Virus record (IMG/VR): IMGVR_UViG_3300048583_000114
Span: 1-58,070 of that record
Source: a virus
Reading direction: 5' to 3' (one strand)
DNA length: 58,070 bases
Positions 9,618 to 42,300 of this stretch are shown here, piece by piece. The stretch's first letter is position 1. Every line of letters starts with the position of its first letter. The notes beneath the pieces were generated by a model, which had not been told where the DNA came from, did no database searches, and saw only the letters and a program-made list of their open reading frames with translations. The position numbers were made by a program, and so were the translations under genes.

Positions 9618-9678
9618 CGTGGTGGTTGCATGCAATCAATGCTTCACCTTCGGTGGTTTATCACGTACACTTCAGTTA

Positions 9679-9699
9679 CCGTATGCATATCGCATACGG
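9679..9699. promoter_or_regulatory. Inverted repeat (operator or hairpin) before the 9727 gene
   Basis: CCGTATGC and GCATACGG form perfect 8-bp arms around a 5-base spacer (ATATC). The site ends 27 bases before the start codon, so it could be an autoregulatory operator or a leader hairpin. Confidence 0.5.
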
Positions 9700-9726
9700 A
9701 CTTTCGTACTTCACGGAGACAACATC

Positions 9727-10386
9727 ATGTCCAAGGCAATCAAAGCAATCAACGTGTTCGCTGGCGTGTCGGCAGGCTCGATGGTCAAGGCAGGCGCCGC
9801 GGTCGATGCCGCAGCCGGAACGCTCACGGCGTTGGCAATCAAGGCAGGCGCAGCGATGGCGAAAGCCGCGCCGGTCCTGAACGCCGACACGCCCGATCTG
9901 TCAAAGGCGATCAACGCGCGGGTTCGGTCGTACTTCTCCGTTGAGATCGGCCGGAAAGCGGCCGACGGCGAGGTACCCGGATTGGATAACGCCATCCGGG
10001 CGCTGTCCCGCGCGTTGGTAATCTTCGCATCGGGCGACAAGGTGTCGCCGCATGTCACATTCCGTGAGTTTGTCGCGAAGGCGAAGGACGCCCGGACGGC
10101 ACTCGGCATCGGCCGCAAGGTCGCGGCCGGTAAGACGGCGCCGGATCAGACGTTGACCGGTGAACCCGCATCGCCGACGCTGTCGGAGGCCGCGGATTAC
10201 TTCGCTTCGCTGCGCGAGTCAACACCCGAGGTTCGGACACAAGTCGCAACGTGGCTGCTGCGCCACATGTCGGCCGAGTCGCGTACCGCGCTCCTGCTGT
10301 CGCTTCAGGCGACCCCGGACGGCAAGCCGAAAGGCAAACGCGCGCCGCGCACCGGCAGCAACGCGCCGGAAACCGCGCCGCTGTAG
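9727..10386 (+). CDS. Ala-rich protein flanked by iterons, unknown function
   Basis: A 219-residue protein starting MSKAIKAINVFAGVSAG, with GGAGAC seven bases upstream of the ATG. The N-terminal 50 residues are Ala/Lys-rich and helical; the middle and C-terminal parts are helical (LSEAADYFASLRES, VRTQVATWLLRHM). It ends in a basic, disordered tail (KPKGKRAPRTG). It is the only gene between two iteron clusters and is followed by its own strong terminator, so it forms an isolated transcription unit. A DNA-binding role in replication or partition is inferred from this setting; there is no recognised domain. Confidence 0.8.
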   Translation: MSKAIKAINVFAGVSAGSMVKAGAAVDAAAGTLTALAIKAGAAMAKAAPVLNADTPDLSKAINARVRSYFSVEIGRKAADGEVPGLDNAIRALSRALVIFASGDKVSPHVTFREFVAKAKDARTALGIGRKVAAGKTAPDQTLTGEPASPTLSEAADYFASLRESTPEVRTQVATWLLRHMSAESRTALLLSLQATPDGKPKGKRAPRTGSNAPETAPL

Positions 10387-10395
10387 TCCGCTTCA

Positions 10396-10422
10396 CCCCG
10401 GGCCGATCGGCCCGGGGTTTTT
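10396..10422 (+). terminator. Rho-independent terminator after the 9727 gene
   Basis: A perfect 22-base palindrome built from CCCCGGGCCGA and its complement (10396-10417), followed directly by TTTTT. It starts 9 bases after the TAG stop. Confidence 0.9.
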
Positions 10423-10436
10423 CGCCGGTGCCGGCA

Positions 10437-10543
10437 CTAACTATCATTGGTCTGAACAGTAGTGGCTCTAACTATCATTGGTCTGAACAGTAGTGGCTCT
10501 AACTATCATCTCCCCCTAGAACAGAGGACGCGCTAACTATCAT
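10437..10543 (+). repeat. Iteron-like direct repeats, right cluster (4 copies)
   Basis: CTAACTATCAT at 10437-10447, 10468-10478, 10499-10509 and 10533-10543. The first two copies form an exact 31-base tandem unit that also includes TTGGTCTGAACAGTAGTGGCT; the later ones are followed by a looser CTAGAACAGAGGAC. Same orientation as the left cluster at 9537-9617. Confidence 0.8.
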
Positions 10544-10867
10544 CGGCACGCAGCCCGATGACCCGGCGCCGCGCCCTTGGTTGCGCAACCAAGCCGCCTC
10601 GCAAGCCTCGGTGGTCGATGACGTTTGGCCCCGCGTTCTCACTTTGTGCGAACCGCCGCTTCTCACAGTGTGGTTGCGCAACCAGCACAGTCGATGACGT
10701 TGGGCAGGGGTCGACCTAGTCTCCACCCAGCCGCGCGTCGCCCGCTAATGCAACTGAGTTGCGCGGAAAACGGGGCGGGCGTTACCACGCTGCTTGGTGA
10801 CGTTGGGCAGCAAACTGCGTTCCGCCGGTGTTGTGCTTGGTCGGCGGCGCAGTGTCGCCCAGCGGAC

Positions 10868-11198
10868 GTGACATAGTAAATGCGTACCATGGAGCTTCCC
10901 GGCCGCATGGTAATTTATGCCGCAAAAAGCCACTGGTATGGCAGAAAATTACCAGATTTCGTTGTTACTTTACGGGTCCGTCAGCCGGACCGGGAAGAAA
11001 ATTACCAGTACTCTGTTGTATACCATGCAGTGGTATCAGTGGTATCAGCGGTAACTACCGTGGTAGGTACTACACCTGAATCGGTAATTTTCTTCCGGGC
11101 TGGTCAAAAAATAGGCAATTTTGCCCCAAATATTACCATTCTTTGTTGCTGATACCATCGGGATCGGGAAGCTCCATGGTACGCAATTACTATGTTAC
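10868..11198. repeat. 33-bp inverted repeat enclosing an AT-richer segment
   Basis: The left arm 10868-10900 and right arm 11166-11198 match with two mismatches. The inner 20 bases (TGCGTACCATGGAGCTTCCC, 10881-10900) are perfectly complementary to 11166-11185. The 265 bases between hold GGTATCAG direct repeats near 11031-11048 and AGAAAATTACC motifs. It could be an origin structure or a small terminal-inverted-repeat element; I see no target-site duplication. Confidence 0.85.
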
Positions 11199-11431
11199 CA
11201 TTTCGGGGCTTCGACAGATCGACTGAATAATCAATGGCTTAGGAAGGTAACTATTACGACTGATACTAATCTTTTAGGGGCTAATATGCTAATTTTCTTC
11301 CCGCTCGACCAAGTAGGGTCCACATCTCTCGACTTTGTCTTGGGCTTACGGCCGCGAAAAGTAACATGGTAACAGCCGCCGCCGCCCGAAAAGTTGTCGA
11401 CCCTTGTTTTCCCGGCTGGCAGAAAATTACC
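10943..11431. repeat. AGAAAATTACC motifs in both orientations
   Basis: Exact copies at 10943-10953, 10996-11006 and 11421-11431 on plus, one on minus at 11083-11093, and a partial minus copy at 11290-11298. The first two extend to AGAAAATTACCAG. Most are preceded by a CCGG- or GGC-containing stretch. A binding site for a replication or regulatory protein is likely. Confidence 0.7.
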
Positions 11432-11449
11432 ATATTAACACCCCCTGTA

Positions 11450-11477
11450 TTGACATAACTACCCATTGTGGTATAAT
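11450..11477 (+). promoter_or_regulatory. Strong sigma70 promoter P1 (early operon)
   Basis: TTGACA (11450-11455), 16-base spacer, TATAAT (11472-11477), with TG one base upstream of the -10 (extended -10). It shares the block GTATTGACATAAC with promoter P2 at 17231. It reads into a leader of about 110 bases that contains a variant palindrome TTGGTTGCACGCAACCAA (11538-11555) and then the 11598 gene. Confidence 0.88.
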
Positions 11478-11597
11478 ACTAGCTGGGGTAAGAGACACCA
11501 CATTTTCCTCCCCCAAGTTGCTACCACCCCGGCCACCTTGGTTGCACGCAACCAAGCCGCCCCGCTCCCTCTTTTCTTCCCCACACAGGAGTCGATC

Positions 11598-11942
11598 ATG
11601 GGTCGTCCCCGCAAGCCTCAGTCCCCACCACTCGTTCTCACAATGTCGAAACAGCAGCGACGCAGCGTCGCCGCCGTGCAGACCATCGTCAACCAGCCCG
11701 TCGACCCCGTATCCAGTCGCATCCGCCACCTGCACATCGACCATCCCCCCGGCGCGTCCAACCTCTGCTTCATGTGCGCCGCCGACAGCGCCAAGAGTTT
11801 CATGCACATGCTGGCTGGCCCCGCCGAGCAGTTCGCCAGCGGTCGACACCCGCGCGTGACCGTTCGCACCGTTGGTTGCGCAACCAATGGCCGCTCGCTG
11901 TGCTCCAGCTGCGGCCGCCCGCTCGACGCCAGACTGACGTGA
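11598..11942 (+). CDS. Small zinc-binding protein, first gene of operon P1
   Basis: A 114-residue protein, MGRPRKPQSPPL start, basic N-terminus. Two Cys pairs (CFMC and CSSC) with nearby His residues (HLHIDH) predict a zinc ribbon. AGGAG lies about 10 bases upstream of the ATG. The exact palindrome TTGGTTGCGCAACCAA is embedded in its coding sequence at 11872-11887. A DNA- or RNA-binding regulator is possible but not shown. Confidence 0.75.
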   Translation: MGRPRKPQSPPLVLTMSKQQRRSVAAVQTIVNQPVDPVSSRIRHLHIDHPPGASNLCFMCAADSAKSFMHMLAGPAEQFASGRHPRVTVRTVGCATNGRSLCSSCGRPLDARLT

Positions 11943-11963
11943 ACCTGCGCAAGGAGATCGACA

Positions 11964-12266: not shown

Positions 12267-12314
12267 CCCAGTAACACCCTTCACCCACGCTGCACCACCA
12301 CAGGAGACTTGACC

Positions 12315-12458
12315 ATGCGCTTCGCCATCACCCTGTTCCTGCTCGCCCTGCTCTCCGCCGGCGGCACCCACATCGCCCTCCAGTTCGCCGACCACCTGAT
12401 CGGCTACACGCTGGCCCAGCACACCATTGATCGCGCAACCAGTGGGATGCGGCCATGA
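12315..12458 (+). CDS. Small membrane or exported protein (47 aa)
   Basis: MRFAITLFLLALLSAGG: a charged start, then a hydrophobic stretch of about 14 residues, so a signal peptide or single membrane anchor. AGGAG is 8-9 bases upstream. The TGA overlaps the ATG of the next gene (ATGA). Not a MAG-motif member. Confidence 0.65.
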   Translation: MRFAITLFLLALLSAGGTHIALQFADHLIGYTLAQHTIDRATSGMRP

Positions 12459-12766
12459 CCATCCCCGAACAGATGCGCCACGTGGCAAACATGCTGCGCA
12501 TGGCCGGGCTGGAGGTCGCCTGCGCGGAGCTATCCTTCGAGTCGCTGAACGACATACCTGACGAGAGGCCGGCCGAGAAGGCGCGGCTGTGGGTCTACCC
12601 CAAGGGCGACAGCTTCATCGGCTCCGCGACGGTGTGGTTCTATGCCAATCGACCCGTGCGGGTATCGGACGGAGCCAGCCAGCGCAGCGCGCGCACGCTT
12701 GTCGACGTTGTCGTCGGCATCTTCAACGCATCGACCTATGGAGCACACGGCCATGCCCACCCCTGA
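12455..12766 (+). CDS. MAG-motif family protein 2
   Basis: A 103-residue protein starting MTIPEQMRHVANMLRMAGL. The motif NMLRMAGLEV is at residues 12-21, followed by a beta-rich middle (ARLWVYPKG, ATVWFYAN) and a C-terminal hydrophobic helix. Starts within the stop of the 47-residue gene. Confidence 0.85.
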   Translation: MTIPEQMRHVANMLRMAGLEVACAELSFESLNDIPDERPAEKARLWVYPKGDSFIGSATVWFYANRPVRVSDGASQRSARTLVDVVVGIFNASTYGAHGHAHP

Positions 12767-13361
12767 CCACAACACCCCCGCCCACCACATGCGCATCCGC
12801 GCCCTCAAGGAGATCATCCGTCGACCGTACGACGGTCTCTATCATCGGCGCTTGCTGATGGCCGACGGCGCACTGATGTGCCCGGAGTGCGCATACGACA
12901 ACTACAAGCCGATCCTGCAGGCTTGCGCGCAGAGCGCCTACGGCACCCGCAACGACTGGCTGTGCGAGGAACACATCGTCACCGACACGTCTCACTGGCA
13001 CGGCCGCGACGACACCGGTGAGAATTTTCCCTGCTGCGTGCAATGCCAAGAACTGCTGCCGGCCAACTACACCGCGGCGCAGCGGCAGCGGGACTGGTCG
13101 CTGAACGCACGGCTGTACGACATGCTGGTCATGGCCGGCAAGGACGAACGACTGGGCAGCAACGCTCGCAAGTACCGGTCGATCGTCTACTTCGACATGG
13201 ACCCGCGCAGTAGCGACTCGACGGACTTGGTCACGGTCGCCATGGTCAAGGGCACGCTGCGCTACCTGCATGTCCACTGGTCGGTCGCCCCCGCCGTGCA
13301 TGCCCTGATCGAACCCATGGTCGCAGCACTGGTTGCGCAACCAGAGGAGACACAGCCATGA
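12753..13361 (+). CDS. Cys-rich zinc domain fused to a MAG-motif module
   Basis: A 202-residue protein. The N-terminal half has clustered Cys and His (CPEC, CAQS, CEEH, CCVQC), predicting one or two zinc-binding modules. The C-terminal half reads LYDMLVMAGKDE and then the beta-beta-alpha pattern of the array proteins (RSIVYFDMD, LRYLHVHW, LIEPMVAALV). Start chosen at 12753 (GGAG 10 bases upstream) rather than the upstream in-frame ATG at 12642, which would sit deep inside the previous gene. Its end contains an exact TGGTTGCGCAACCA at 13330. Confidence 0.8.
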   Translation: MPTPDHNTPAHHMRIRALKEIIRRPYDGLYHRRLLMADGALMCPECAYDNYKPILQACAQSAYGTRNDWLCEEHIVTDTSHWHGRDDTGENFPCCVQCQELLPANYTAAQRQRDWSLNARLYDMLVMAGKDERLGSNARKYRSIVYFDMDPRSSDSTDLVTVAMVKGTLRYLHVHWSVAPAVHALIEPMVAALVAQPEETQP

Positions 13362-13471
13362 CCTTCGACGAGATGGATCGCTGCATTAAGCGCCTGCAGA
13401 CCGTGCAGCGCATGGTCGCCCAGCTGCGGGCCGAGGATGCTGCCAACGACAACGAGGAGACCCAGTCATGA
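13358..13471 (+). CDS. Micro-ORF (37 aa), helical
   Basis: MTFDEMDRCIKRLQTVQRMV, a single predicted amphipathic helix with an acidic tail. It overlaps both neighbours by four bases (ATGA at each end) and has GGAG upstream, which supports translation. Confidence 0.6.
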   Translation: MTFDEMDRCIKRLQTVQRMVAQLRAEDAANDNEETQS

Positions 13472-14100
13472 CCAACATCGACATCTGCGAACGCATCAAG
13501 GACATCTGCACCATGGCCGGCGTCCCGGTCGAGTACGCCAAGCCGGACTGGCACTACACGCAGGTGCCACGCTTGGGAGAGGACTGCCGTGCGTTCTTCC
13601 AGATCGACAACAAGGGACGGCTGTACGTGGCCGTGGATCACGAAGACCCCGCGGTGCGCTCACTGGTGGAGAATGCCTACCAGCTGGTGACCTCCAGCGT
13701 GACGAGCTTTACTATCATCGAGCCGGAGCCGCCGCATGTGCCATCCGCAGATGCGCGCAGCCGGACTGACGGGGGCCTGTCCCTACTGCTGTCCGACCAG
13801 TGGGGCAGCGAGATGCCCCGCGGGTTCGTCACCCAGATCGACCTGCGCACCTTCTGGGGCATTCGCCCGACGGACGTGGCCATCTGCTCGCAGCCGGACC
13901 ACCCGCACGTGTGGGACGCATGGCAAGACATCGTCGACCGCGCCATCCACCGGGTGAACATCGACGGGCAGACGTACGACTTCTACCTGTACGAGAACGG
14001 CAACCTTTGGCTGGCGTGCAACAAGCTGCTCACGGCAGAAGAACGTCGCTCGCTCTACGATGATTGCGCAACCAGCGAGTACGACGAGGAGGACGCATGA
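13468..14100 (+). CDS. MAG-motif protein with extra C-terminal domain
   Basis: A 210-residue protein. Residues 1-75 carry the module: IKDICTMAGVPVEY, a beta middle and a helix (SLVENAYQLV). A linker follows (EPEPPHVPSADARSR), then a second domain of about 110 residues with GGLSLLLSDQWGSEMPRG and YDFYLYENGNLWLA. No known family. It overlaps the previous and next genes by 4 bases. Confidence 0.82.
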   Translation: MTNIDICERIKDICTMAGVPVEYAKPDWHYTQVPRLGEDCRAFFQIDNKGRLYVAVDHEDPAVRSLVENAYQLVTSSVTSFTIIEPEPPHVPSADARSRTDGGLSLLLSDQWGSEMPRGFVTQIDLRTFWGIRPTDVAICSQPDHPHVWDAWQDIVDRAIHRVNIDGQTYDFYLYENGNLWLACNKLLTAEERRSLYDDCATSEYDEEDA

Positions 14101-14483
14101 ACCCGTTGGATGAAATAGACAAGCAGGCCGATGTGATCCGGCGCGCTGCCGACATGATGTGCATGGCCGGGTTGTTCCCGTCTGTGGGAGGCACGGACTA
14201 CCCGAACAAGCTGTCGAGTGAGGTGCTGGCGAGGCGCGGCAACCTGTGGGTCAGGGAACGGCGCGAGGACTTAATCACGGAGTCGTACACCGTGATGTTC
14301 GACTTCCACTCGCGGTCGATCTCCGTGCGCAAGGACGGCGCCAGCGGGCAGTACACGGAACAGCTGCGGGCGGGCCATGTGCGGTTCGCCGTGCACGACA
14401 CTGCCATCTACTCAAAGGGTAACGACGAAGCGCTGCGGCACATGGTCCACGAGGCGCACCGGCTGATTAGGGAGGAATCATGA
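14097..14483 (+). CDS. MAG-motif family protein 4
   Basis: A 128-residue protein, MNPLDEIDKQADVIRRAADM start; motif ADMMCMAGLFPS near residue 23, then NLWVRERR, two further beta segments and a C-terminal helix ending HRLIREES. The ATG lies within the previous stop. The REES ending recurs in its neighbours and encodes the next gene's ribosome binding site (GGAGGAATC). Confidence 0.85.
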   Translation: MNPLDEIDKQADVIRRAADMMCMAGLFPSVGGTDYPNKLSSEVLARRGNLWVRERREDLITESYTVMFDFHSRSISVRKDGASGQYTEQLRAGHVRFAVHDTAIYSKGNDEALRHMVHEAHRLIREES

Positions 14484-14764
14484 CGACACCGATGAAGATC
14501 GTGCGCCTGCGACGCGATGCGGCCGCGTTGCTGGAGCAAGCAGGGACAATGCTGAATTTGGCTGGCATGCAAACTTCCTTCTATCCCTCGGTACCTGCGT
14601 TGTGGGTCCGCGCTGGAGATGACGATGGCGCCCTTGGCGGGCTACGAGTCGGGATTATCCATAGCAGAGGGGAGATCAGGTTCACTTTCTCAACCGACTG
14701 TGACGAGAAAGTTGCTGCGGTGGCTCGCTTGGTTGTAAAGCAACTGCGCAAGGAGGAATCATGA
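14480..14764 (+). CDS. MAG-motif family protein 5
   Basis: A 94-residue protein with motif GTMLNLAGMQTSFY, then ALWVRAGDD, a beta hairpin (GGLRVGIIHSRGEIRFTF) and C-terminal helix VARLVVKQLRKEES. It shows the alpha-beta-beta-beta-alpha layout of the array well. Four-base overlaps on both sides. Confidence 0.85.
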   Translation: MTTPMKIVRLRRDAAALLEQAGTMLNLAGMQTSFYPSVPALWVRAGDDDGALGGLRVGIIHSRGEIRFTFSTDCDEKVAAVARLVVKQLRKEES

Positions 14765-15018
14765 CCCTTCACAAAGCCCAGCAGCGGGAGCTGCTGACCC
14801 GGCTGTACGCCATGTGCACCATGGCTGGGTATGGTTGCCGACTGGTGCCGGCGCTGCCTTCGTTGTGGGTGGCAGGCCGCGTGCGGGTAGACGTGCAACG
14901 CTCCGGCAAGCTACTCACATACCCGGTCGGATTGTTCGACGACGAGCCGGAGGAAGCCATCAAGATCATCGCGCTCGTCAAGGCGTCGTACGAACAACTG
15001 CGCAAGGAGTTCCCATGA
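14761..15018 (+). CDS. MAG-motif family protein 6
   Basis: An 85-residue protein, LLTRLYAMCTMAGYGCRL followed by SLWVAGRVRVDVQRSGK and the C-terminal helix YEQLRKEFP. Its C-terminus closely parallels the previous paralogue (QLRKEES), consistent with tandem duplication and divergence. Confidence 0.87.
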   Translation: MTLHKAQQRELLTRLYAMCTMAGYGCRLVPALPSLWVAGRVRVDVQRSGKLLTYPVGLFDDEPEEAIKIIALVKASYEQLRKEFP

Positions 15019-15305
15019 GGAAGCCTCCGCTCAAGGCCGCGCAACGACGCGCCATCCTGCACCGGCTGGTCTCCATGTACACCATGGCGGGGTACGACTG
15101 CGACACCGCCGACTCGTGCTACCTCGCGTGGGTTCGCCAGCGAGGCAGTACCTCACTCGACAGCTTGTTCGAGGGCGTGCGGCTGGAGGTCACCCGCGTC
15201 GGCAACGTGCAGAGTGAGGTGCACTTCGCGCGGGAGTTCCATGTGAAGGTGCTGGAGATGCTACGCGTGGCCGCGCCGATGATCTACAAGGAGGTGGTGG
15301 CATGA
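15015..15305 (+). CDS. MAG-motif family protein 7
   Basis: A 96-residue protein, ILHRLVSMYTMAGYDCDT then a beta-rich middle (GVRLEVTRVGNVQSEVHF) and a terminal helix. Its MYTMAGYDC closely matches the MCTMAGYGC of protein 6. Four-base overlaps with both neighbours. Confidence 0.87.
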   Translation: MRKPPLKAAQRRAILHRLVSMYTMAGYDCDTADSCYLAWVRQRGSTSLDSLFEGVRLEVTRVGNVQSEVHFAREFHVKVLEMLRVAAPMIYKEVVA

Positions 15306-15562
15306 GTGCCAAGCTACTGACGGACCGACTGGCGATGGTTGCGCAATCAGCGGGGTTCGAGCTGGAGTATCTGCCGCTGGTCGAGTCCCAGATCGAGTGC
15401 CCGCAGCTGATCATCAACAATCCGCGCAACGAGTATGAGTGGGTCTCCGTCTACATCGAAGATGGCGCGGGCAACCTGCGCGTGTTTTCATCTGTCGAGG
15501 GTATTTCGCTGCGGCATTGGACCCAGACGACTATCACCGCGCTGATGAAGGAGGAGACATGA
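15302..15562 (+). CDS. MAG-motif family protein 8 (degenerate motif)
   Basis: An 86-residue protein. The motif position reads AMVAQSAGFELEY (SAG instead of MAG), then QLIINNP, WVSVYIEDGAGNLRVF and a C-terminal helix with KEET. A one-mismatch copy of the dispersed palindrome (15336-15349) lies over the motif itself, which may explain the residue change. Confidence 0.82.
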   Translation: MSAKLLTDRLAMVAQSAGFELEYLPLVESQIECPQLIINNPRNEYEWVSVYIEDGAGNLRVFSSVEGISLRHWTQTTITALMKEET

Positions 15563-15837
15563 TCGCATCGTGGCAGGAACTGACCGACCGCGTGAAGCTC
15601 GCACTGGAGATGGCCGGATACGTGGTCGAGCACGCCCCGTATTCCGACTCGAAGCTGTACGTGTGCCCGCCTAGCTGGGATCGCACTGGGCGGTGGATAC
15701 CCGTGTGGGTAGGGGCATTCCCGGAGGTTTCCTCGTGTGGCGACAACGACCCTGACGCGGCCGTGCTGCGGCAGCTGGTCACCGACATCTACCGGCACCT
15801 GTTGGAGGAGACATGTGTTCACGAATACAGGCTTTAG
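15559..15837 (+). CDS. MAG-motif family protein 9
   Basis: A 92-residue protein with VKLALEMAGYVVEHAPY, then KLYVCPPSW, a beta segment (IPVWVGAF) and the helix LRQLVTDIYRHLLEE. It overlaps the next gene by 25 bases, longer than other junctions; the expected helix end (HLLEET) is reached before this overlap, so the last residues are an extension. Confidence 0.83.
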   Translation: MIASWQELTDRVKLALEMAGYVVEHAPYSDSKLYVCPPSWDRTGRWIPVWVGAFPEVSSCGDNDPDAAVLRQLVTDIYRHLLEETCVHEYRL

Positions 15838-16073
15838 CCGAGCGGCTGCAGGACATGGCCAAGCTGGCGGGGCATGCCACCACGCTCCTTCCCGAGTCGG
15901 CATCGTCTTGGCCTGTGCTGATCGTTCGTGATGTGGTCGTTCGCAGGCAGCTGGCGAGGGCCATCGTGAACGACGACATGAACGAGCTGTCGCTGGACAC
16001 CAGCGGCGATGAAGCGATCTGCATATGGCTGCGCATGGTGTTCGACCAGCTCGTCGCACAGGAGGGGAGATGA
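15813..16073 (+). CDS. MAG-motif family protein 10
   Basis: An 86-residue protein, LAERLQDMAKLAGHATTLLP (LAG variant), then WPVLIVRDVVV and the C-terminal helix MVFDQLVAQEGR. The GGAGGAGACATG context before the start gives a good ribosome binding site inside the previous gene. Confidence 0.83.
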   Translation: MCSRIQALAERLQDMAKLAGHATTLLPESASSWPVLIVRDVVVRRQLARAIVNDDMNELSLDTSGDEAICIWLRMVFDQLVAQEGR

Positions 16074-16333
16074 AACCCACAGAGCGAACCGAGCGCGTGG
16101 CAGACATGCTGCGCATGGCAGGCTACGGCGTGCGCGTGTCGCCCGGACTCAGTAGCAACCGACTGGTGGTGCGCATTCCGGTGATGGAGTCGAGTCTGGA
16201 GGTGGCCGTGTGGATCGACAGCCCGGAGCCCTACATCAGCTTCTTGGCTGATGTCCTGCCCGACAACCACGGCCCCCGGCTGCGCTCGTTGGTCGAGGAA
16301 TGCTGTCGACAACTGGCGGAGGAGAGATCATGA
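16070..16333 (+). CDS. MAG-motif family protein 11
   Basis: An 87-residue protein, ERVADMLRMAGYGVRVSPG, then RLVVRIPVMESSLEVAVWI and the helix LVEECCRQLAEERS. It shares ADMLRMAGYGV with the consensus and closely resembles protein 2 (ANMLRMAGLEV). Confidence 0.87.
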   Translation: MKPTERTERVADMLRMAGYGVRVSPGLSSNRLVVRIPVMESSLEVAVWIDSPEPYISFLADVLPDNHGPRLRSLVEECCRQLAEERS

Positions 16334-16575
16334 CCCAGAACGAGTTTGCCGAGCGGCTGGCCTTGGTGCTGGTCATGGCGGGGTATGCGATCGACCGGGT
16401 AGGTGCGACGCTCTACTGGAGGTACTGGAGGACTAGCGAGCGGGCCATAGGGAGCCTGCGATCATGGACAGTCAAGATCAGCATCACACCAGCTGGGGAG
16501 GCCGTCATGGACCGCGCAAACGCTGCCGATCCGCTGCCGATCCGCTGCCGATCGAGTTCGTCACCTTGGTATTGA
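16330..16575 (+). CDS. MAG-motif family protein 12, C-terminus frame-shifted by an 11-bp repeat
   Basis: An 81-residue protein with ALVLVMAGYAIDRV at the motif. After residue 62 the frame runs through three perfect tandem copies of CGCTGCCGATC (16521-16553) and ends in an atypical CRSSSSPWY. With two copies instead of three, the frame would continue EFVTLVLNTAAALREEA and stop at 16622, which restores the helix seen in all siblings. So this copy looks like an off-state of a length-variable tract, a recent mutation, or an assembly error. Confidence 0.75.
   Translation: MTQNEFAERLALVLVMAGYAIDRVGATLYWRYWRTSERAIGSLRSWTVKISITPAGEAVMDRANAADPLPIRCRSSSSPWY
16521..16553. repeat. Tandem 11-bp repeat x3 (CGCTGCCGATC) inside a MAG-motif gene
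   Basis: Three perfect copies at 16521-16531, 16532-16542 and 16543-16553. The unit is not a multiple of three, so copy number sets the reading frame of the 16330 gene. Slipped-strand change by one unit toggles between the short form and a family-typical C-terminus. Confidence 0.9.
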
Positions 16576-16635
16576 ACACAGCGGCTGCGCTTAGGGAGGA
16601 AGCATGGGCGACAAAGAACTGACGAAGGAGGGACA

Positions 16636-16905
16636 ATGAACAAGGCGCAGAGTGCGGCGCACGTGGCCCGCATAGACCGCATGGCGACCGTGCTGCAGAT
16701 GGCGGGGTACCGCGTGCAGCGGGTGAAGTGGAAGCTGTTTGTGAACCTGCCAACGACTGAGCTGGCCTTCGTGCCGTTCACGGTGTACCCAGATCAGGTA
16801 GTGGGCAGCTTCGGCCACTTATCCCGCGCTGTGCGCGACGAGGGAGCGGCTGTGATGAAGCTACTAGCGGAAGCTTTCGAGCTGACGAAGGAGAAGGCGC
16901 AATGA
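16636..16905 (+). CDS. MAG-motif family protein 13
   Basis: An 89-residue protein, MATVLQMAGYRVQRVKWKLF, then the beta segment LAFVPFTVYPDQVVGSF and the helix MKLLAEAFELTKEKAQ. Strong ribosome binding site AAGGAGGG upstream. The gap from 16576 would vanish if the 16330 frame were restored (stop at 16622), keeping the tight packing of the array. Confidence 0.86.
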   Translation: MNKAQSAAHVARIDRMATVLQMAGYRVQRVKWKLFVNLPTTELAFVPFTVYPDQVVGSFGHLSRAVRDEGAAVMKLLAEAFELTKEKAQ

Positions 16906-17234
16906 GCACCGAGGTACTGCATCTAAAGCACTCGCTATCATCCGACGACGCGCGGGCGCTGCTGGAGCGCGCCGAGATGCAGTGCAGGATGGCCGGCATG
17001 CACACCCGGCTCACGTTGCGGATCACCGAGGGCTTGCACGGGATGCTGCTGGCCAGCCTGACCAACGAGGAGGTGAACGACCGGACCCAGTCCGTGGTCG
17101 ACTGCGCGCTGCTGCTGATCGCCGGCGACGAGCTGGCTACTGCCCACAACTCGTCCGAGGAGGCGTCCGCCGAGGTACTCAACACCATCGTGCAGTCCCT
17201 GCTCACAACCTATACAACACAGGAGGTGTATTGA
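16902..17234 (+). CDS. MAG-motif family protein 14, last of the array
   Basis: A 110-residue protein with ERAEMQCRMAGMHTRLTLRI (one extra residue in the motif), a beta hairpin and the C-terminal helix VLNTIVQSLLTTY. Its stop codon overlaps the -35 box of promoter P2, marking the end of the array. Confidence 0.85.
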   Translation: MSTEVLHLKHSLSSDDARALLERAEMQCRMAGMHTRLTLRITEGLHGMLLASLTNEEVNDRTQSVVDCALLLIAGDELATAHNSSEEASAEVLNTIVQSLLTTYTTQEVY

Positions 17235-17258
17235 CATAACAACCTAGCAGAGTATAAT
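17231..17258 (+). promoter_or_regulatory. Strong sigma70 promoter P2 (MoxR operon)
   Basis: TTGACA (17231-17236), 16-base spacer, TATAAT (17253-17258). It shares GTATTGACATAAC with P1 at 11450. The leader of about 95 bases carries an exact TGGTTGCGCAACCA (17308-17321) about 50 bases after the -10, matching the layout of the P1 leader. Confidence 0.9.
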
Positions 17259-17358
17259 ACATACTTCGCCGGGGAGTTTGCTGACTATTCGGCGAAGCGC
17301 AACACACTGGTTGCGCAACCAACACACTTCATATACTTCACATCAAGGAGATGCAAGC

Positions 17359-18439: not shown

Positions 18440-18453
18440 TGGTTGCGCAACCA
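18440..18453. promoter_or_regulatory. Exact palindrome TGGTTGCGCAACCA between MoxR and DUF3150-like genes
   Basis: One of the dispersed palindromes, in the 66-base gap before the 18487 gene. See the repeat entry at 9624 for the full set. Confidence 0.8.
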
Positions 18454-19329: not shown

Positions 19330-19339
19330 GGAGACTGAC

Positions 19340-21522: not shown

Positions 21523-21743
21523 TGACGCAACCCGACGGCACTGTGGCCGGTGCCATCGCCTACCTGAAGGCACGCGGCAAGTGGCAGGGCGCCGACGACA
21601 CGCAGTGGCGCCCACGGTCTGCCGCGAAGACCAACGTGGCCCGCACCTTCATCGAAGTGGCCAAGGAGACCGCTGACTCCGACGAGCCGCTGATCATCAC
21701 CCCGGGGCTGCGTCGGCTGGCCTCGGTGACGCGCAAGCGCTGA
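21519..21743 (+). CDS. Small basic protein of unknown function (74 aa)
   Basis: MMTQPDGTVAGAIAYLKARG, helical and basic with an ITPGLRRLASVTRKR end. Starts within the previous stop. Followed by a one-mismatch palindrome TGATTGCGCAACCA (21741-21754) that overlaps its stop and leads into the next ribosome binding site. Confidence 0.68.
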   Translation: MMTQPDGTVAGAIAYLKARGKWQGADDTQWRPRSAAKTNVARTFIEVAKETADSDEPLIITPGLRRLASVTRKR

Positions 21744-21765
21744 TTGCGCAACCAAGGAGAACGAG

Positions 21766-25149: not shown

Positions 25150-25163
25150 TGGTTGTGCAACCA
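25150..25163. promoter_or_regulatory. Palindrome copy TGGTTGTGCAACCA before the 25175 gene
   Basis: One central mismatch from the consensus. It runs straight into AAGGAGA, so a bound protein could affect ribosome access or transcription. Confidence 0.6.
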
Positions 25164-29218: not shown

Positions 29219-29526
29219 CCCCCATCCGCAACGAGCGGGGAGTCAAAGCCCGGGTCAAGACGATACTTAATTCTTACGGGCCGAGAGTCTGGTACTACAT
29301 GCCAGTGCCCGGTGGCTATGGCCGATCAGGTGTGCCAGACTTCGTTGGTTGCGCAAACAAGCGGTTCTTCAGCATCGAGACCAAGTTCGGCGGCAACCAG
29401 CCGACCCTGCACCAGTCGCAGGAACTCGCCGCCATAAAGGTTGCCGGGGGCTTGGCGTTTGTCATCGACGAGACGAACGTGGAAGGGCTGTCCATCGCCA
29501 TGGACCTGATCCTGCGAGAAACCTAG
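29215..29526 (+). CDS. VRR-NUC nuclease
   Basis: A 103-residue protein. GVKARVKTILNSYG, then VPGGYGRSGVPDFVGC with the catalytic Asp, FFSIETKFGG with the E-x-K pair, and HQSQELAAIKVAGG. This is the minimal VRR-NUC form of the PD-(D/E)XK fold, often a phage structure-specific nuclease or junction resolvase. ATG 29215 chosen over GTG 29203 because of the ATGA overlap. A one-mismatch palindrome (29346-29359) lies inside. Confidence 0.9.
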   Translation: MTPIRNERGVKARVKTILNSYGPRVWYYMPVPGGYGRSGVPDFVGCANKRFFSIETKFGGNQPTLHQSQELAAIKVAGGLAFVIDETNVEGLSIAMDLILRET

Positions 29527-31701: not shown

Positions 31702-32813
31702 CCACCGATGTAACCCTGCAAGTCCCCGCACACATCGCCGCGCGGGTCGCTGCGCGCAACGCGAACGGGCGGACCAAGTCGGAAGTCGCGGCACAGATCG
31801 ACGCCAGCAACCCGACGCCGAAGATCAGCATCCGCGCCTCGCGCTTCCGCATCGTGACCAACGGCGAGGAGACCATGATCGGCTCCGAGATGCTGGGCGT
31901 GATCGTGGGTGGCAACCCCGCTACCAGCCGCGCGTACTACGCGGAGAAGTACGTGTCGGGCGACTCCGGCCCGCCGACCTGCAGCTCGGTCAACGGCAAG
32001 ACCCCGGACGCCAACATCGCAGCGCCGGTGTCGCAGCAGTGCGCTGCCTGCCCGAATCAGGTCCGCGGGTCGAAGATTCTCCCCTCCGGCGCGCAGGGCA
32101 CGCTGTGCTCCCCGTACAAGCTGCTGGCGGTCGTGCCGCTGGTGCAGGGGGTGGGTCTGGCGCCCTACCAGCTGTCGGTGCCGGTGACCGGCCTGTCGGC
32201 GCTGCGTGAGTACGTGAACAAGTTGGCCAACTACGGGCTGTCGCCGGAGGAGGTCATCACCAAGTTCACGTTCGACGACGAGGCGTCCTTCCCGCTGCTG
32301 CAGTTCGACCAGCACGGGTTCGTGCCGGAGACCGCGCTCGGCCAGATCGACGCGATCGTGTCGAGCCCCGAGGTGAAGGAGGTCACGTGGGTCAACCCGC
32401 CGGCCCTGCCGCAGGTGGCCGCCCCCGCAGCGGTGGCGCAGATCGCAGCGCCGGTTGCTGCAACCATCCCGGCCCCGGTGGCACCCGCAGCAGCCCCGGC
32501 TGCGCTCGCGCAGTTGTTCCCGGCAGCAGCCCCCGCACCGGCCCCGGTGGCAGCCCCCGCGCCGGTCGTCGCGTCCCCGGAGGCGTTGTTCGCCGCAGCA
32601 GCGCCCGCAGCGCAGGTGCAGGCAGCAGTCGAGGCAGTCGCCGCCCAGCCCCTCCCCGCCCCGGTTCTCGGTGCATCCCCGCCGCCGCGTCCCCGGCGCG
32701 CTCGGGTCACCGTCGACCAGCCCGCAGAAGCGCCCGCAGCGCAGGTGCAGGCAACCGCAGAGCCGGCCGCACCGGATCAGCTGGAGGCGAAGATCGCCGC
32801 ATTGTTCGCCTGA
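31698..32813 (+). CDS. Replication-region protein with Ala/Pro-rich tail, possibly ssDNA-binding
   Basis: A 371-residue protein. The N-terminal 230 residues form a globular part with ISIRASRFRIVTNGEE, a Cys set (CSSVNG, CAACPNQV, CSPYKLL) that may bind metal, and LPLVQG-type beta segments. The C-terminal 130 residues are low-complexity Ala/Pro/Val/Gln (QVAAPAAVAQIAAPV) ending LEAKIAALFA. A conserved end after a disordered linker resembles interaction tips of ssDNA-binding proteins, but I do not recognise the fold. Followed by a terminator. Confidence 0.7.
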   Translation: MTTDVTLQVPAHIAARVAARNANGRTKSEVAAQIDASNPTPKISIRASRFRIVTNGEETMIGSEMLGVIVGGNPATSRAYYAEKYVSGDSGPPTCSSVNGKTPDANIAAPVSQQCAACPNQVRGSKILPSGAQGTLCSPYKLLAVVPLVQGVGLAPYQLSVPVTGLSALREYVNKLANYGLSPEEVITKFTFDDEASFPLLQFDQHGFVPETALGQIDAIVSSPEVKEVTWVNPPALPQVAAPAAVAQIAAPVAATIPAPVAPAAAPAALAQLFPAAAPAPAPVAAPAPVVASPEALFAAAAPAAQVQAAVEAVAAQPLPAPVLGASPPPRPRRARVTVDQPAEAPAAQVQATAEPAAPDQLEAKIAALFA

Positions 32814-32877: not shown

Positions 32878-35778
32878 ATGGGAATGGATTTGCGCGGGTT
32901 CTTCGGGCGGACGCTGCCGCCGGAAGGGCGATACGTGTTGCTCGTGATCCGGTCGAGTGGGGCACGATTCAACATCCAGACAGAATCACTCGATGAACTG
33001 GTCGACATGGTCGACACGATGGACCGTCGAGCGGACACGACGGTGTACCACGCGGTAGGTGCATTCGCCGACAGCATCATCACCGGCGAGAAGGTCCGCA
33101 GGCTGCAGGAGGATGCGCGAGCGTTCCGCACGCTGGCGATGGATGTGGACGTGGGGGCAGGCAAGCCCTACCAGACGCAGCAGGAAGCCGCCCTCGCCGT
33201 GCTCAGGGCCGCAGCGGACAGCGGGATGCCGGAGCCGATGCTGGTGTCTTCCGGCTACGGGGTGCACGTCTACTGGCCCATGTCCGCGGATGTCGACCCG
33301 GCGCAGTGGGTGCAGATGTCGACCCAGCTGCTGGCGCTGATGCGTCACACCGGCGTGCAGGTCGATGCGAGCAAGGTGCGTGACCCGTCGATGGTGCTGC
33401 GCCCGCCGGGCAGCAACAACAAGAAGCGCGACCCGTGGGTGCCGGTGCGCGTCGTGCAGGAGGGGTCGATCACTGCCCCGGCCGACCTGCAGATGGTGCT
33501 GGCCAATGCGCCAGCGGAAGTCGTGGCAACCCTCACCGCCCCCGCCGCCAAGGTGGCAGCGCCCCTGTCCAGCATTGCCAGTGCGATCGTAGGCGACGCA
33601 CCGGAGTACCCGCCGCTGGCCCCCGCCGACATGGAGCCTCAGTGCGCGCAGCTGGCTGAAGCCGCTGCGACCGGGTTCGCCGGCAACTACAAGGCGTGGA
33701 TCACCGCGCTGACGGTGGCGAAGTTCTGCGAAGACCCGCTCGACGCAGCCCATCGGTGGTCCGAGCATGCCCCCGACTACGACGCAGCCGAGACCGAGCG
33801 CGTGCTGTCGACACTGCATGCCACCGGCCCGTCGCTGTGCCAGACCTTCGCCCTGCACAACCCGTCGGGGTGCGCAGCCTGCCCGCACAACGGCAAGATT
33901 CGCAGCGTGGCTGCGTTGTCCGGTGCGTCTCTACCAACAACTGTGCCGGTGCCGCCTGCGGCGCTGGTTGCGCAACCAGCCGCTACCCTGACCCTGCCAC
34001 CCGGCTACGTCACCGCCAACCGGGCGATCTATCGCGTCATCGACGGCGTGCGCGATCTGGTCATCGAGTACCCGCTGATCGTCATCTCGCACACGACCGA
34101 GGTCAGTCAGACGACGGAGGCCCGTTGCGCAGAGATCATGGCGGACATACCGTCGGAGGGATGGCGGACATTCCTGATCCCCATGAAGGCCCTGTACGGG
34201 CGCGACACGGAGCTGGCCGAGGCGCTGGCGAGTCGTGGCGTGTACCTACCCAAGGGAAGGACCGCACGTGTTGGAGCGTACATCGTGGACTACCTGAAGC
34301 AACTGCAGCAGGCAGCAGCCGCAGCCGAGGTGTACCGGCAGATGGGCTGGTCGGCGCGGGAGGATGTGTTCGTGGCAGGGTCGACTGCCTATACTGCGAC
34401 GGGCAGCGCGCCGTGTCGCGTCGGAGACCGGGTCCGCAGCATTTCCGGGTCGTTCCGCACCGAGGGGCAACTCGCCAACTGGAGCGCGGCGGCCAACGTG
34501 TACAACTCGCCTGAGCTTCGCATGCACGCCTTTTGTCTGCTGGCGATGATGGGCGCCCCGCTGATGCGCGGCTCGGGACTGGATGCCGCGGTGCTGTACA
34601 TGTACAGCCCGCAGTCAGGCACCGGCAAGTCGACCACCGGCCTGCTCGGGCTGTCAGCCTTCGGGGAACCCGGCCGGATGAAGATGCAGGCGGCCGATAC
34701 CCACAACGCGATGATGATGCGCTTCTCGCTGCACGGCTCGACACCGGCCTACATCGACGAAGTGACCACGATGGACGACGAGCAGATGCGCATGCTGCTC
34801 CTTCAGGTCACCCACGGGCAGCAGCGCGCCCGGCTGCACTCGGATGCGTCGTTGCATGACGCAGTGCAGTGGAACACGATCGTGGCGGCTAGCGGCAACC
34901 GGGACATCCACGCCGGGCTGGCAGCAGCAGCGAACAACGAGGGAGCGCAGATGCGGGTGCTGCAGGTAACCCTGCCCCCGACGGCGACGTTCTCGCGGAC
35001 CAACGCGGGCGCGCGGATCAGCGCCCTGATCGACTCGAACTACGGCCACGCCGGCCCGATGCTGGCGCAGGAGATCATCCGCATGGGTGGGCCGGGCAAG
35101 CTGTTCCGCGCGGCCGAGGAGTCGATGGATGCGACATACAAGTTCCGGTTCGAGGGGCCGGAGCGGTTCTGGCGGGCCATCGCGGTGTGCGCCTATGCGG
35201 CCGGCACGCTGGCCAACCGGATGGGGCTGGTGCAGCTCGACGTGCCGGCGATCATGAAGGCAGCGGTCGAGAACGTGGACATCCTGCGGTCGTCGGTGCG
35301 CGAGGGTGCGCTCGACGGCATCGACCTTGTCGGCGAGTTCGTCCGGCAGCTGGCGCCGCAGATCGTAGTGATGAAGCACAATCAGGACAGCGGGCTGCAG
35401 ACACCGCAGTACGTGCCGCCAACAGGCGAGGTGGTGGGCAGGCTCGACGCGCTATGCACGAACCGGGTCAGCTTCTCCGGTGGTTCCCTGCACATATCCA
35501 GCAGCGCGCTGCAGCAGTGGGCGCGCAAGCGGGGGACCGATCAGGCGACGATCCTGACGCAACTGATGCGCGACGGGGTGGCAGTTGTGCGGCCGAGCAC
35601 GGCGAGCCCCAACAAGGTCACGCTGACTCGTGGGACGGGTTCCCTCGGGACGGCAGTGAGGTGCTACTCGATCAGCCTGACGCACCCGCGTCTGATGAGC
35701 GCGATCGGGAGCAGTTTCGACAACAAGCAGCCAGCAATCGCACCACTGCAGGTGGTGCCGGCAAACGCTGCACAATAG
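32878..35778 (+). CDS. AEP-type primase fused to superfamily 3-like helicase (DUF927-like)
   Basis: A 966-residue replication protein. Primase: LAMDVDVGAG (D89, D91), SSGYGVHVYWPM (H130) and RDPSMVLRPPGSNNKK, matching archaeo-eukaryotic primase motifs. A Cys set LCQTFALHNPSGCAACPHNG near residue 320 may bind zinc. The helicase ATPase has Walker A SGTGKST (K584) and TPAYIDEVTTMDDEQ as Walker B. The C-terminus is a helix-turn-helix-like region with LQQWARKRGTD. An exact palindrome (33965-33978) is embedded between the two halves, decoded as LVAQP. Confidence 0.92.
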   Translation: MGMDLRGFFGRTLPPEGRYVLLVIRSSGARFNIQTESLDELVDMVDTMDRRADTTVYHAVGAFADSIITGEKVRRLQEDARAFRTLAMDVDVGAGKPYQTQQEAALAVLRAAADSGMPEPMLVSSGYGVHVYWPMSADVDPAQWVQMSTQLLALMRHTGVQVDASKVRDPSMVLRPPGSNNKKRDPWVPVRVVQEGSITAPADLQMVLANAPAEVVATLTAPAAKVAAPLSSIASAIVGDAPEYPPLAPADMEPQCAQLAEAAATGFAGNYKAWITALTVAKFCEDPLDAAHRWSEHAPDYDAAETERVLSTLHATGPSLCQTFALHNPSGCAACPHNGKIRSVAALSGASLPTTVPVPPAALVAQPAATLTLPPGYVTANRAIYRVIDGVRDLVIEYPLIVISHTTEVSQTTEARCAEIMADIPSEGWRTFLIPMKALYGRDTELAEALASRGVYLPKGRTARVGAYIVDYLKQLQQAAAAAEVYRQMGWSAREDVFVAGSTAYTATGSAPCRVGDRVRSISGSFRTEGQLANWSAAANVYNSPELRMHAFCLLAMMGAPLMRGSGLDAAVLYMYSPQSGTGKSTTGLLGLSAFGEPGRMKMQAADTHNAMMMRFSLHGSTPAYIDEVTTMDDEQMRMLLLQVTHGQQRARLHSDASLHDAVQWNTIVAASGNRDIHAGLAAAANNEGAQMRVLQVTLPPTATFSRTNAGARISALIDSNYGHAGPMLAQEIIRMGGPGKLFRAAEESMDATYKFRFEGPERFWRAIAVCAYAAGTLANRMGLVQLDVPAIMKAAVENVDILRSSVREGALDGIDLVGEFVRQLAPQIVVMKHNQDSGLQTPQYVPPTGEVVGRLDALCTNRVSFSGGSLHISSSALQQWARKRGTDQATILTQLMRDGVAVVRPSTASPNKVTLTRGTGSLGTAVRCYSISLTHPRLMSAIGSSFDNKQPAIAPLQVVPANAAQ

Positions 35779-35788
35779 GAGAACCAAC

Positions 35789-36100: not shown

Positions 36101-36101
36101 C

Positions 36102-39300: not shown

Positions 39301-42300
39301 ACGTGACCAGAATCTCCTTGGCCAGCGTGTCGTTCGGGATGCCCATGATGCGCGCCCACGACTGCACGAACACGTCCCACAGGTTCTTGGCCATTTTCAC
39401 GAGGCTGAGCTTCTTGCTCAGCTCGGGCGTGACCTTCATCTCCTTGAGTACGCGCTGCAGCGCCGGGTCGGTCATCGAGTAGGCGAGCATCTCCTTGACC
39501 TTGCCCAGCTGATCGAGCTTGCCAGCCAACAGCGCCTCGATGCCGCTCATCGACTGGCCGGAGGCTTGGTTGGTCAGCCCGAGGCGATCTGCGTGGCCGC
39601 GCGCTTCTGCCGCGCGAGCGGCGAAGTCGTTGGCCAGCGCAAGCATGCGGTTGAACAGCGGGCTGCCCACGTTGTCCGCCGCCCACACCGCGGTGGCTGC
39701 GTGCACACCTTCGTGCAGCGCGTAGCTCCAGTACGCCCCGTTCGAGGAGATAGTGATCGTCGGGTCTTGCTTGCCCGGCACACCCGGCACGAACGCAGCG
39801 ACGGCGCTGGGGGGCAGCGTGCCATCCTCCAGCTTCACCTTCGGGTTGAAGTTGATCCGCAACAGCGCGTTGGCGAGCGTTGCCTCGATCGGTGACAGGT
39901 CGCGCATGGCCAGATACCGCAGCAGCGCGCGGTAGCCGGTGTACTTGGTCGGCTTGCCGAACTCCCCGAACTTCCCATCGAGGATGTCCTGCAGCTTGTC
40001 CATGGCCACGTTGCCTGCTTCGACCTTGCCCCGGATCACATCGGTGAACACCGGCTGCAGCGCGCGGGTGCCATCGGCGTTGAGCGAGCCCATGCGGTAC
40101 TGGTGCCACAGCGCAGCGAAGCGGGTCACCGCCGGCGAGTCGCTGGCCGGCGTCGCCGCCTTGGCCACGCCCAGCAGGTAGTTGATGTCCGCCTCGCCGT
40201 GCTCCTCGACCAGCGCCGAGAAGTAGCTGTTCGCCTGCATCGTGAGAGCGCGTATCGCTTCGACTTGCTGCGCAGTCGACTCGCTGGCCTTGGCAGCAAC
40301 CTTGGTGAACGGAGAGGTGTCGCCCAGCTTGTCCGTGGCCGAGCGCGGTCCCAGCTTCTGCGCGAGGCTGCTTATCAACTTGCCGAGCTTCTCGGCGATG
40401 CCGTTAAACTCGGCGCCGCCAACGACTTCCAGCGCGTACTCGGTGTCCGCATCCAGATCGAGGCCCGGGCCATCCGCCTTGGTGATCTCGCCGGTTTCTT
40501 CGTCGACCTCGTCGTCCAGCAGCATCTTGGCGACGGACTTCGTGGCGGGCTTCTTGCCTTTGCCACCGGCGGCGTAGTTCGGCGCATCGACGCGCCCGAC
40601 CAGATTACCGGCCAGCACATCGGGGTCGACTTCCACCCGCTTCAGCGCGTCGGCCACCGCGGCGCGGTAGGCCATCGGCACCGCCTTGCGCATCGCCTTC
40701 TGGAACTCCGGCGTCAGGTCGTAGTCGGTCAATGCGCCGATCGCCCGCGCAGCAGCCCGTGCCACGGCGTTGCGTTGCCGGCCCGGGGGGACGTTGCCCA
40801 CGGCGGCGAACATGGCCGCCAGCCGCTCGGGCAGGGTCTTGATGTCGCCGGCAGGCGTGTCGGCTTTCTCGTCGTACACCTTGGTGACTGCAGCGCGCAG
40901 CTCTTTCGGCGGCAGCGCCTTGGCCGTCATCGGCGTGGGCGCCGGGGCCAGCAGGTCGCTGGCCAGTGCCTTGCCCTGCTCCTTGGCTTCGGCCTTGGTC
41001 ACCTTGTCGGTGGTGCGCTCGCCAGCGGGCTTCTCGGCCGGGGCCGAGGGCTTCGGTGCCTTCTGCTCGGCCGTGGCCTTCTCTGCAGCTGCGACTTCTC
41101 CACGGATGCGCTCGGCAACCGCTGCCGCTTCGAGCTGCGCGGCGCGCTCCTTCTTCGACATCGCCTTGGCCGGCTTGGCGGCGGGCTTCTCTGCAGCCGG
41201 TTTCTTGGCCTTCGCCGCGACCTTCTCCTTGACGGGCGCTGGTTGCGCAACCGGCGCAGTCTTGGCAGCGGCCGGCTTCTTCGCTTTCGTTGCGATGTGT
41301 TCACGCAGTTTGGTGGCCGCAGCGGTCATCTTGCCGGCGAACTCGTCAGCTACCTGCGCCAGCCCCGTCGAAACAGGCGGCGGGGTTACAGGGCTTGTAA
41401 CCTCCGTCGGGGCCGCGGCGAGTTCTTCCTGCAGCTGCGCTTGCAGGTCTTCCTCGGTCTCCGGCGCAGCACGCTTGGCCTTAACACGAGTATTTGCAGC
41501 GACCGCCTTGGTTTTCGCCGCAGTCGTTGGTTGCGCAACCGGCGCGGTAGCAGCGAGTGCAGCCTTCGCCCGCTTGGCCTTGCCGCGGACCTTGGCACCA
41601 GTGCCCAGAGCGGGCGCAGCCGGAGCGGTAGTCGTGGTCGGACCTTCTCCTGCAGGAGCCGCAGGCTGCGCAGCCGGAGGCTCGGTCGGGGGTGTGCCCT
41701 GCCGACCCTTGGCCAGACGCTTGGCCGTGGCGGTCTTGTCCGCAGCGGAGAATGCGCCCTCTACCGGCAGCTCTCGACCTTCGACGATGCCGGCCTGATC
41801 GAACAGCGAGCCGGGAGACTCCGGGCCGACCATGTCGCTTGGCGGGTTGCTCAGCAGCGCGCCCGGACCCATCGGGATGGCCTGCGCCGGCGCCATCGGC
41901 TCGGTCATCGGCGTGCCGAACAGGTCACCCTGCGTCGGCTGCAGGCCGAACAGCTCCATCTGGCGCGGGTCGATCTCGGGCATGCGCGACACCGTCGGCG
42001 GCACGACCTCACCGGGAACCTGCGGACCTTGGAACTGCGGATCGTCGGGGAACAGCTGACCGTTGGGCGCCGGCGGCCGGGGCGGGTTGTAGAACCTCGG
42101 GTCGACCTGCGGGGTCTCGGGCGGGCGCGGGCGGCCAGCAGCACCAGCAACACCACCAGCGAGGGCACCGGGCAGCGCCCCGAACACGGCGGCGGTGGCG
42201 AAGTTCTCCTTCGACTGGTCGTTCCAGAACGTCTGCTCCGGGTTGACCGCCATGCGGCCGACCTGTTCCAGCATCGTCTGTCCCAGCTCACCGGCAGACT

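Follow-up and report, generated by a model that had tools for sequence, protein, structure and literature searches.

What is the function of a 12-base palindrome that recurs through a stretch of viral DNA, chiefly in the arm that carries the early genes? The stretch, positions 1 to 58,070 of the IMG/VR record IMGVR_UViG_3300048583_000114, was analysed over its full length of 58,070 nucleotides and is hereafter called the window; the palindrome is GGTTGCGCAACC. By its gene content the window derives from an HMO-2011-like podovirus, with homologous portal, terminase and PolA genes in divergent arms, together with genes for a SNF2-type helicase, an AAA ATPase (hereafter MoxR) and a DUF2201/VWA protein. 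In gene set and gene order it stands close to Rhizobium phage RHph_TM3_14A, whose portal is 36% identical, and farther from HMO-2011. We consider it probable, with some reserve, that the palindrome is a dispersed DNA operator, and that a phage-encoded dimeric regulator, most likely the product of the first early gene, binds the copies and controls early transcription.

Nine exact copies of GGTTGCGCAACC are present (starting at 10579, 10672, 11874, 13331, 17309, 18441, 33966, 41241 and 41529), as compared with a mean of 0.007 and a maximum of 1 in 300 third-order resamples of the window. Five copies have one mismatch (14062, 15337, 21742, 25151 and 29347), and sites with up to two mismatches number 23 against 4.87 expected, the top value in 100 shuffles being 12. 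This is the most frequent 12-base palindrome of the window; the runner-up has 2 copies. A scan for wide variants, with spacers of 1–8 bases and at most one mismatch, gave GGTTGC-AT-GCAATC at 9624 (one mismatch) and GGTTGC-AC-GCAACC at 11540, in both of which the arms lie 2 bases apart. It further gave a site with exact arms and a spacer of 1 at 32453, within an early gene. Three more matches, perhaps due to chance, are a one-mismatch site with a spacer of 2 in the late arm (4320), one with a spacer of 5 (41104) and one with a spacer of 8 (21513). The nine exact, five one-mismatch and two wider copies reported in an earlier sequence-only reading of this DNA were all recovered, the wide-variant scan adding the further matches. 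The sites and the associated features are as follows, with the strand indicated where one applies.

9624–9637, wide variant GGTTGC-AT-GCAATC, 89 nt 5′ of the first early gene
9727–10386, + strand, first early gene, 219 amino acids, product P0002, candidate palindrome-binding protein, assigned by position only
10396–10422, + strand, terminator-like hairpin and T run 3′ of the first early gene, read from the sequence
10579–10590, exact copy, in a noncoding leader by inspection
10672–10683, exact copy (exact match)
11450–11477, + strand, sigma70-type promoter TTGACA-N16-TATAAT
11540–11553, wide variant GGTTGC-AC-GCAACC in the leader, with the −10 lying 62 nt upstream
11874–11885, exact copy, in the 3′ portion of a small gene
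12429–12440, two-mismatch copy, start codon 14 nt downstream
13331–13342, exact copy, start codon 16 nt downstream
14062–14073, one-mismatch copy, start codon 23 nt downstream
15337–15348, one-mismatch copy, barely within a small gene, may be coding
17231–17258, + strand, sigma70-type promoter TTGACA-N16-TATAAT
17309–17320, exact copy, 50 nt past the −10 and 39 nt ahead of the ATG of the AAA ATPase (MoxR-type) gene, in whose leader it lies
18441–18452, exact copy, start codon 34 nt downstream
21742–21753, one-mismatch copy, start codon 12 nt downstream
25151–25162, one-mismatch copy, start codon 12 nt downstream
29347–29358, one-mismatch copy, intragenic
32453–32465, wide variant GGTTGC-T-GCAACC, intragenic
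33966–33977, exact copy within the DUF927 gene, may be coding
41241–41252, exact copy within a 2482-codon late gene, may be coding
41529–41540, exact copy within the same 2482-codon late gene, may be coding

The copies at 13331, 21742 and 25151 end 12–16 nt 5′ of a start codon and are immediately followed by a Shine-Dalgarno (SD) sequence. They had been described as running straight into ribosome binding sites, and this placement holds, although the positions given for them (13330, 21741 and 25150) are one base too low. Each of the two TTGACA-TATAAT promoters (11450 and 17231) has a site downstream of its −10, at 62 and 50 nt, respectively, in agreement with the earlier claim of a copy in both sigma70 leaders. 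The bias to the early arm noted there was also confirmed, as 14 of 16 sites (the exact and one-mismatch copies, 9624 and 11540) lie in that arm (p = 0.0007). With 32453 and 4320 added the share is 15 of 18 (no p computed), and for the exact copies taken alone it is weaker (7 of 9, p = 0.054); the intragenic exact copies at 33966, 41241 and 41529 may be coding coincidences.

Neither the early nor the late arm had a Megablast match among phage records, and no close relative was found with the window's MoxR-type protein as the query. A query of the palindrome with its SD sequence in viral contigs returned two stretches with matching surroundings and a single copy each. Relatives were collected as IMG/VR loci retrieved with PolA, VWA and MoxR proteins, and their open reading frames were taken from a simple caller. 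As the loci are related and some contigs are represented by two of them, the counts below refer to loci rather than independent phages, and pairs of loci are likewise not independent. Among 233 loci of 5 kb or more (the window and relatives), 157 had at least three copies of one inverted repeat; this cut has no shuffle control and admits a few clearly other things, such as a T run. Under a stricter criterion, applied to 131 loci of 8 kb or more, 60 had at least four copies and exceeded every one of eight shuffles.

The arms of these repeats vary among phages, GTTAGTG, GTTAGGGA, TTCGGGCA and GTTACC being examples. The dyad classes include GTTAGTG-N3, GTTAGGGA-N1, GTTAGTCC-N2, TTCGGGCA-N2, GTTCTACA-N1, TAGCCA-N1, TTTAGGG-N4, GTAGGGA-N3 and GTTAGC-N6, with spacer lengths that are biased low because class extension adds complementary bases only. 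Many classes span 17–18 bp, and the window palindrome (12–14 bp) is among the short ones. In RHph_TM3_14A (L007), GTTACC-N5/6-GGTAAC occurs 48 times when up to one arm mismatch is allowed, several of the copies being right at start codons. GTTAGTG-N3-CACTAAC occurs in 7–9 exact copies in 5 of 14 searched records (59.8–62.4 kb), clustered in one stretch, which in one of the five spans the ends of the record. The repeat is not a hallmark of the HMO-2011-like group: when seven named phages were scanned in pieces of 50 kb, the top dyad was inside the shuffle range in L010, L011 and L014, and reached 3 copies in HMO-2011 (L008) and 4 in CRP-1 (L009) and Rollin (L012), where the shuffle maximum was 2. 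L009, L012 and L133, whose repeats looked unlike the others, were removed by hand from later counts but are retained in the 60 of 131 and 157 of 233. In another of the named phages, Vibrio phage CHOED (L013), AAATC-N11-GATTT was found 14 times in 50 kb. No description of the palindromes studied here was found in the open-licence literature.

The placement seen in the window recurs in the relatives. The 94 loci that have five or more copies contain 688 sites in total. Of these, 42% are intragenic, as compared with 89% for random positions of the same span, and 42% (289 sites) lie within 70 nt 5′ of a forward start, as compared with 10%. Of these upstream sites, 143 sit 15–24 nt ahead of the start codon, just 5′ of the SD sequence. 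In 39 of 108 loci, as compared with 8.2 for random positions, a dyad has a promoter with at most one mismatch in the preceding 110 bp, at a distance of 38–80 nt.

The conserved early operon opens, past the late genes, with a variable gene, usually 170–240 codons long, whose replacement tends to accompany a change of palindrome. In L184, which has TTTACGGAA, the first early gene shows no BLAST match to its counterparts in L176, L178 and L182, which have GTTAGTG, whereas in the same comparison the nearest flanking genes (terminase subunits, DUF3150-like and MoxR) are 83–96% identical and farther genes 43–94%. The L184 gene does match those of two loci of the TTTACG type, L183 (68% identity) and L143 (38%), and the L176 gene is 51–93% identical to those of four GTTAGTG phages. 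L177 and L181 end before the first early gene, and their blanks in this comparison are uninformative. A test was also made on locus pairs with MoxR 70–99% identical, where the same dyad means identical arms aligned at the axis and non-comparable pairs count as different. First early genes were homologous in 536 of 623 same-dyad pairs (median identity 44%) and in 430 of 871 different-dyad pairs (median 0). For seven other genes, the medians were 37–82% in same-dyad and 31–80% in different-dyad pairs, e.g. 82 and 80% for the large terminase and 63 and 62% for VWA.

An automatic rule served to pick the first early genes, and it is wrong in some cases. A profile of 54 first early proteins detected 17 more proteins at E < 0.003, every one of them from a locus with three or more dyad copies; 13 are first early genes by the rule, 3 are fragments near the locus start, and one is an L211 gene that the rule had missed (in both L211 and L212 the profile chose another gene). 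Among 44 non-redundant proteins, similarity along the sequence tracks dyad similarity best at a basic segment, GARRNDFK, with a partial rho of 0.43 that was reached in 0 of 200 label permutations (largest 0.385). As a control for ancestry, eight other genes were treated in the same way and top out at a partial rho of 0.28–0.44 at some segment, while the first early protein on the same loci as each control gave 0.44–0.67, higher in every comparison and always at the same segment. By eye, the letters of the segment match the sites across diverged proteins, GARRNDFK and GARIGDFK occurring with TAGTG, and GSKLKDLR, GSAIKDIK, GSKIKDLR and GSAITDLK with TAGGG. By our own inspection the segment may be of helix-turn-helix nature, which no family search supports.

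A second protein family (L007, L100 and L110, gene position checked in L007 only) shares KAN-(I/V)-SKLR and accompanies TTACC-GGTAA dyads. Such dyads are also present in L098, L099 and L113 and absent from L101 and L115, and the Bradyrhizobium loci L319 and L327 have 7 and 6, respectively, against about 0.1 expected. These two are relatives' loci in Bradyrhizobium isolate genomes, one of them on a contig of 60.6 kb, roughly the length of a phage genome.

No Pfam match above the cut-off was obtained for ten of the first early proteins including P0002, and PHROGs gave two weak matches of unknown function for the same proteins (E 0.002 and 0.0098), neither of them for P0002. That these proteins tend to be exchanged along with the palindrome suggests a family of phage DNA-binding regulators not recognised before, as anticipated in the suggestion that the binder could be one of the early proteins without an assigned function. 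Dispersed operators as such are already known, but this family of proteins appears to be new, as do its numerous natural pairings of site and protein.

The counterpart of this protein in the window was chosen by position: the gene at 9727–10386 occupies the place after the late/early divergence, as in the relatives. It is followed by a terminator-like hairpin and T run, and L140 and L167 have similar hairpins and T tracts behind their first early genes. L333, from the record with a polymerase 41% identical (L263), carries TAATCCC-NN-GGGATTA, with a one-mismatch dyad upstream of its first early gene. The similarity of P0002 to the first early protein of L333 is not significant, as 174 of 3000 shuffles were as good (212 of 3000 with P0002 shuffled, and 168 of 1000 in semi-global alignment); when 1319 proteins were ranked against P0002, places two to four were taken by first early proteins, two of them near-identical. 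The single-sequence structure model of P0002 was unusable (predicted local distance difference test, pLDDT, 45). Two other sequence elements lie near first early genes. In the window, CTAACTATCAT occurs seven times on a single strand at 9537–10543, three times before and four times after the gene, as possible iterons or another operator, and an element shared by L167, L140, L171, L162, L121 and L042, GATACCAGT, adjoins dyads near the first early gene.

In the mechanism that we propose, a dimeric protein encoded by the first early gene, here 9727–10386, would bind the copies in the early promoter leaders and before individual early genes. The bound protein would most likely obstruct RNA polymerase, so that early transcription is lowered or stopped, and through the copy lying upstream of its own gene it could also repress itself. 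No tyrosine integrase (PF00589) was detected in the window or in 14 relative records, several of which are perhaps incomplete and in which a degenerate one could escape detection, and no resolvase (PF00239) in 13 records, the window among them; the search did not extend to other recombinase families or to partition genes. The lack of a detected integrase favours the ending of the early phase in a lytic cycle over the silencing of a persisting or superinfecting genome, while the changes of specificity and the Bradyrhizobium loci keep such silencing among the possible roles. A wider proposal, which we put forward tentatively and do not consider the likelier outcome, is that this Pfam-absent phage protein family evolved a dozen or more palindrome specificities, largely through the one basic segment, with the operators rewritten each time. 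Each specificity may then define an incompatibility or immunity group, in which a resident or co-infecting phage would silence none but its own kind, even though no integrase is recognised in these phages.

Several observations weigh against a dispersed operator bound by the first early protein. A homologous first early gene is kept in 430 of 871 different-dyad pairs, and 42% of the 688 sites fall within genes. The control genes were chosen because they matched a single reference phage by BLAST, which partly guarantees that they turn up in every pair, and MoxR served as the selector. Over the 44 loci, MoxR tracks the dyad in its overall identity as closely as the first early protein does (rho 0.66 and 0.65, respectively), and shared ancestry contributes. 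The construction of the controls and the behaviour of MoxR lower our confidence slightly. P0002 has no detectable homology to either family of first early proteins, its profile score being no better than those of shuffles. The structure model of a relative's protein (pLDDT 82, predicted template modelling score 0.61) had no match at E ≤ 0.001 in PDB or among viral models, the best viral-model match being an uncharacterised protein at E = 0.026. The spacing of the arms differs by 1–2 bp inside some genomes (the window, L007, L140 and L166), which is unusual for a rigid dimer, and the core orientation of the sites is slightly biased, 437 of 535 being in the majority orientation (null 420, standard deviation 6).

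This last bias, together with the peak of sites 15–24 nt before start codons, is what would be expected if the palindromes acted in RNA, as hairpins just 5′ of SD sites by which a phage RNA-binding protein or RNase controls translation or processing. Stems are possible in many classes, and by eye the SD sequence is included in several right arms of L007. Were the sites read as RNA, G.U pairs should be favoured over A.C, but one-mismatch sites across loci comprise 20 G.U on the + strand, 23 A.C and 62 other mismatches. Many classes, moreover, have a spacer of 0–2 and are palindromic right to the axis, exactly where the loop would be (in part a product of the class-extension procedure), and the intragenic sites, some of them at gene ends, do not fit such a role. 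The lack of strand bias among mismatches indicates that the sites probably work as double-stranded DNA, and as judged by their symmetry they are probably bound by a symmetric dimer. An RNA hairpin had been considered as the principal explanation and was dropped on the strand symmetry of the mismatches; it is kept as an unlikely rival, and the translation-level switch suggested in the sequence-only reading is accordingly not favoured.

Among explanations in which the sites act as DNA, the one that we regard as possible though rather doubtful takes them as immunity operators of a temperate or phage-plasmid lifestyle, silencing a resident genome in the manner of stoperators. It would account for the differing sites of close relatives and for the relatives' loci with TTACC dyads in two Bradyrhizobium isolate genomes; the integrase and resolvase searches, within the limits given above, speak against it. 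Sites for genome organisation, partition or packaging, with no part in transcription, would explain why some phages have copies within genes and at gene ends, but the strong placement before early genes and past early promoters would not be expected of them, nor the restriction to one stretch in five records, and we think this distinctly improbable. A host DNA-binding protein or methylase, as was also proposed earlier, would typically recognise a palindrome. It is not favoured, since phages whose nearest flanking genes are 83–96% identical differ in the palindrome, which goes with the phage gene; in addition, GGTTGCGCAACC was found in none of the four bacterial genomes bearing relatives' loci. 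The probability that we assign to a host protein or methylase is very small.

Dispersed operators have precedents. Streptomyces phage phiC31, which is temperate and has a serine integrase, carries conserved inverted repeats at many places that are bound by the phage repressor. The closest form is that of the Cluster O mycobacteriophages, whose 17-bp dyad TGTTCGG-N3-CCGAACA is present in 34 copies in Corndog, about a third coding and many intergenic; in the 2015 paper, both the function and the binding protein of the repeats were left open, and the phages lack an integrase (PMC4351075). Invariant arms, a free centre, partly coding sites and the lack of a detected integrase are shared with the present phages. 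The dyad form itself is that of the relatives, while the window has arms as invariant yet mostly without a spacer. The sequence and the phage group differ, and according to their authors the Cluster O repeats are not closely tied to translation starts (PMC4351075). The dyad scanner used here recovers the Cluster O repeat in Firecracker; neither first-early-protein profile matches any Firecracker protein.

Stoperators of the temperate Cluster A mycobacteriophages are asymmetric, 13 bp long, oriented along the direction of transcription and recognised by a monomeric protein; they resemble the present sites in being numerous, mostly off promoters and variable between related phages, where they track the repressor (PMC9283540, PMC6550527). 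The sites here are palindromic, and their arms as such have no orientation. Of the proposal of a stoperator-like operator, the repeated operator is supported by the analogous networks in relatives, but the likeness to stoperators is a functional analogy only, those being asymmetric and orientated (PMC9283540). In Bacillus phage SPbeta, the dispersed element SPBRE is bound by a single phage protein, the lysogeny repressor MrpR, which has a tyrosine-recombinase fold and binds the element in promoter regions (PMC10516654). The likeness lies in one phage protein and a dispersed repeated element (PMC10516654); the present phages differ in that no PF00589 match was found, although a degenerate one could be missed. 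The start-associated sequences of Cluster K mycobacteriophages also lie near translation starts but are nearly all in the same orientation, and their extended form consists of imperfect 17-bp inverted repeats with a variable spacer (PMC3203893).

The relatives offer many candidate pairs of site and protein against a single conserved genome layout, and some close relatives have neither the site nor the protein in common. The role of dispersed operators and the joint change of a regulator and all its sites thereby become directly testable. If the proposed binding is true, the family would be a source of orthogonal DNA-binding proteins.

Other features of the window were noted in passing. A long tract without obvious genes at 10700–11450, ahead of the first early promoter, contains three GAAAATTACCA repeats and is a possible origin. 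An array of small early genes at 12400–17200 encodes products with an MLxMAGY-like motif by eye, and a similar-looking array is present in the Rhizobium phage. Past the portal gene, at 305–4080 on the late (−) strand, adjacent DUF1501 and DUF1800 genes form an unusual phage cargo.

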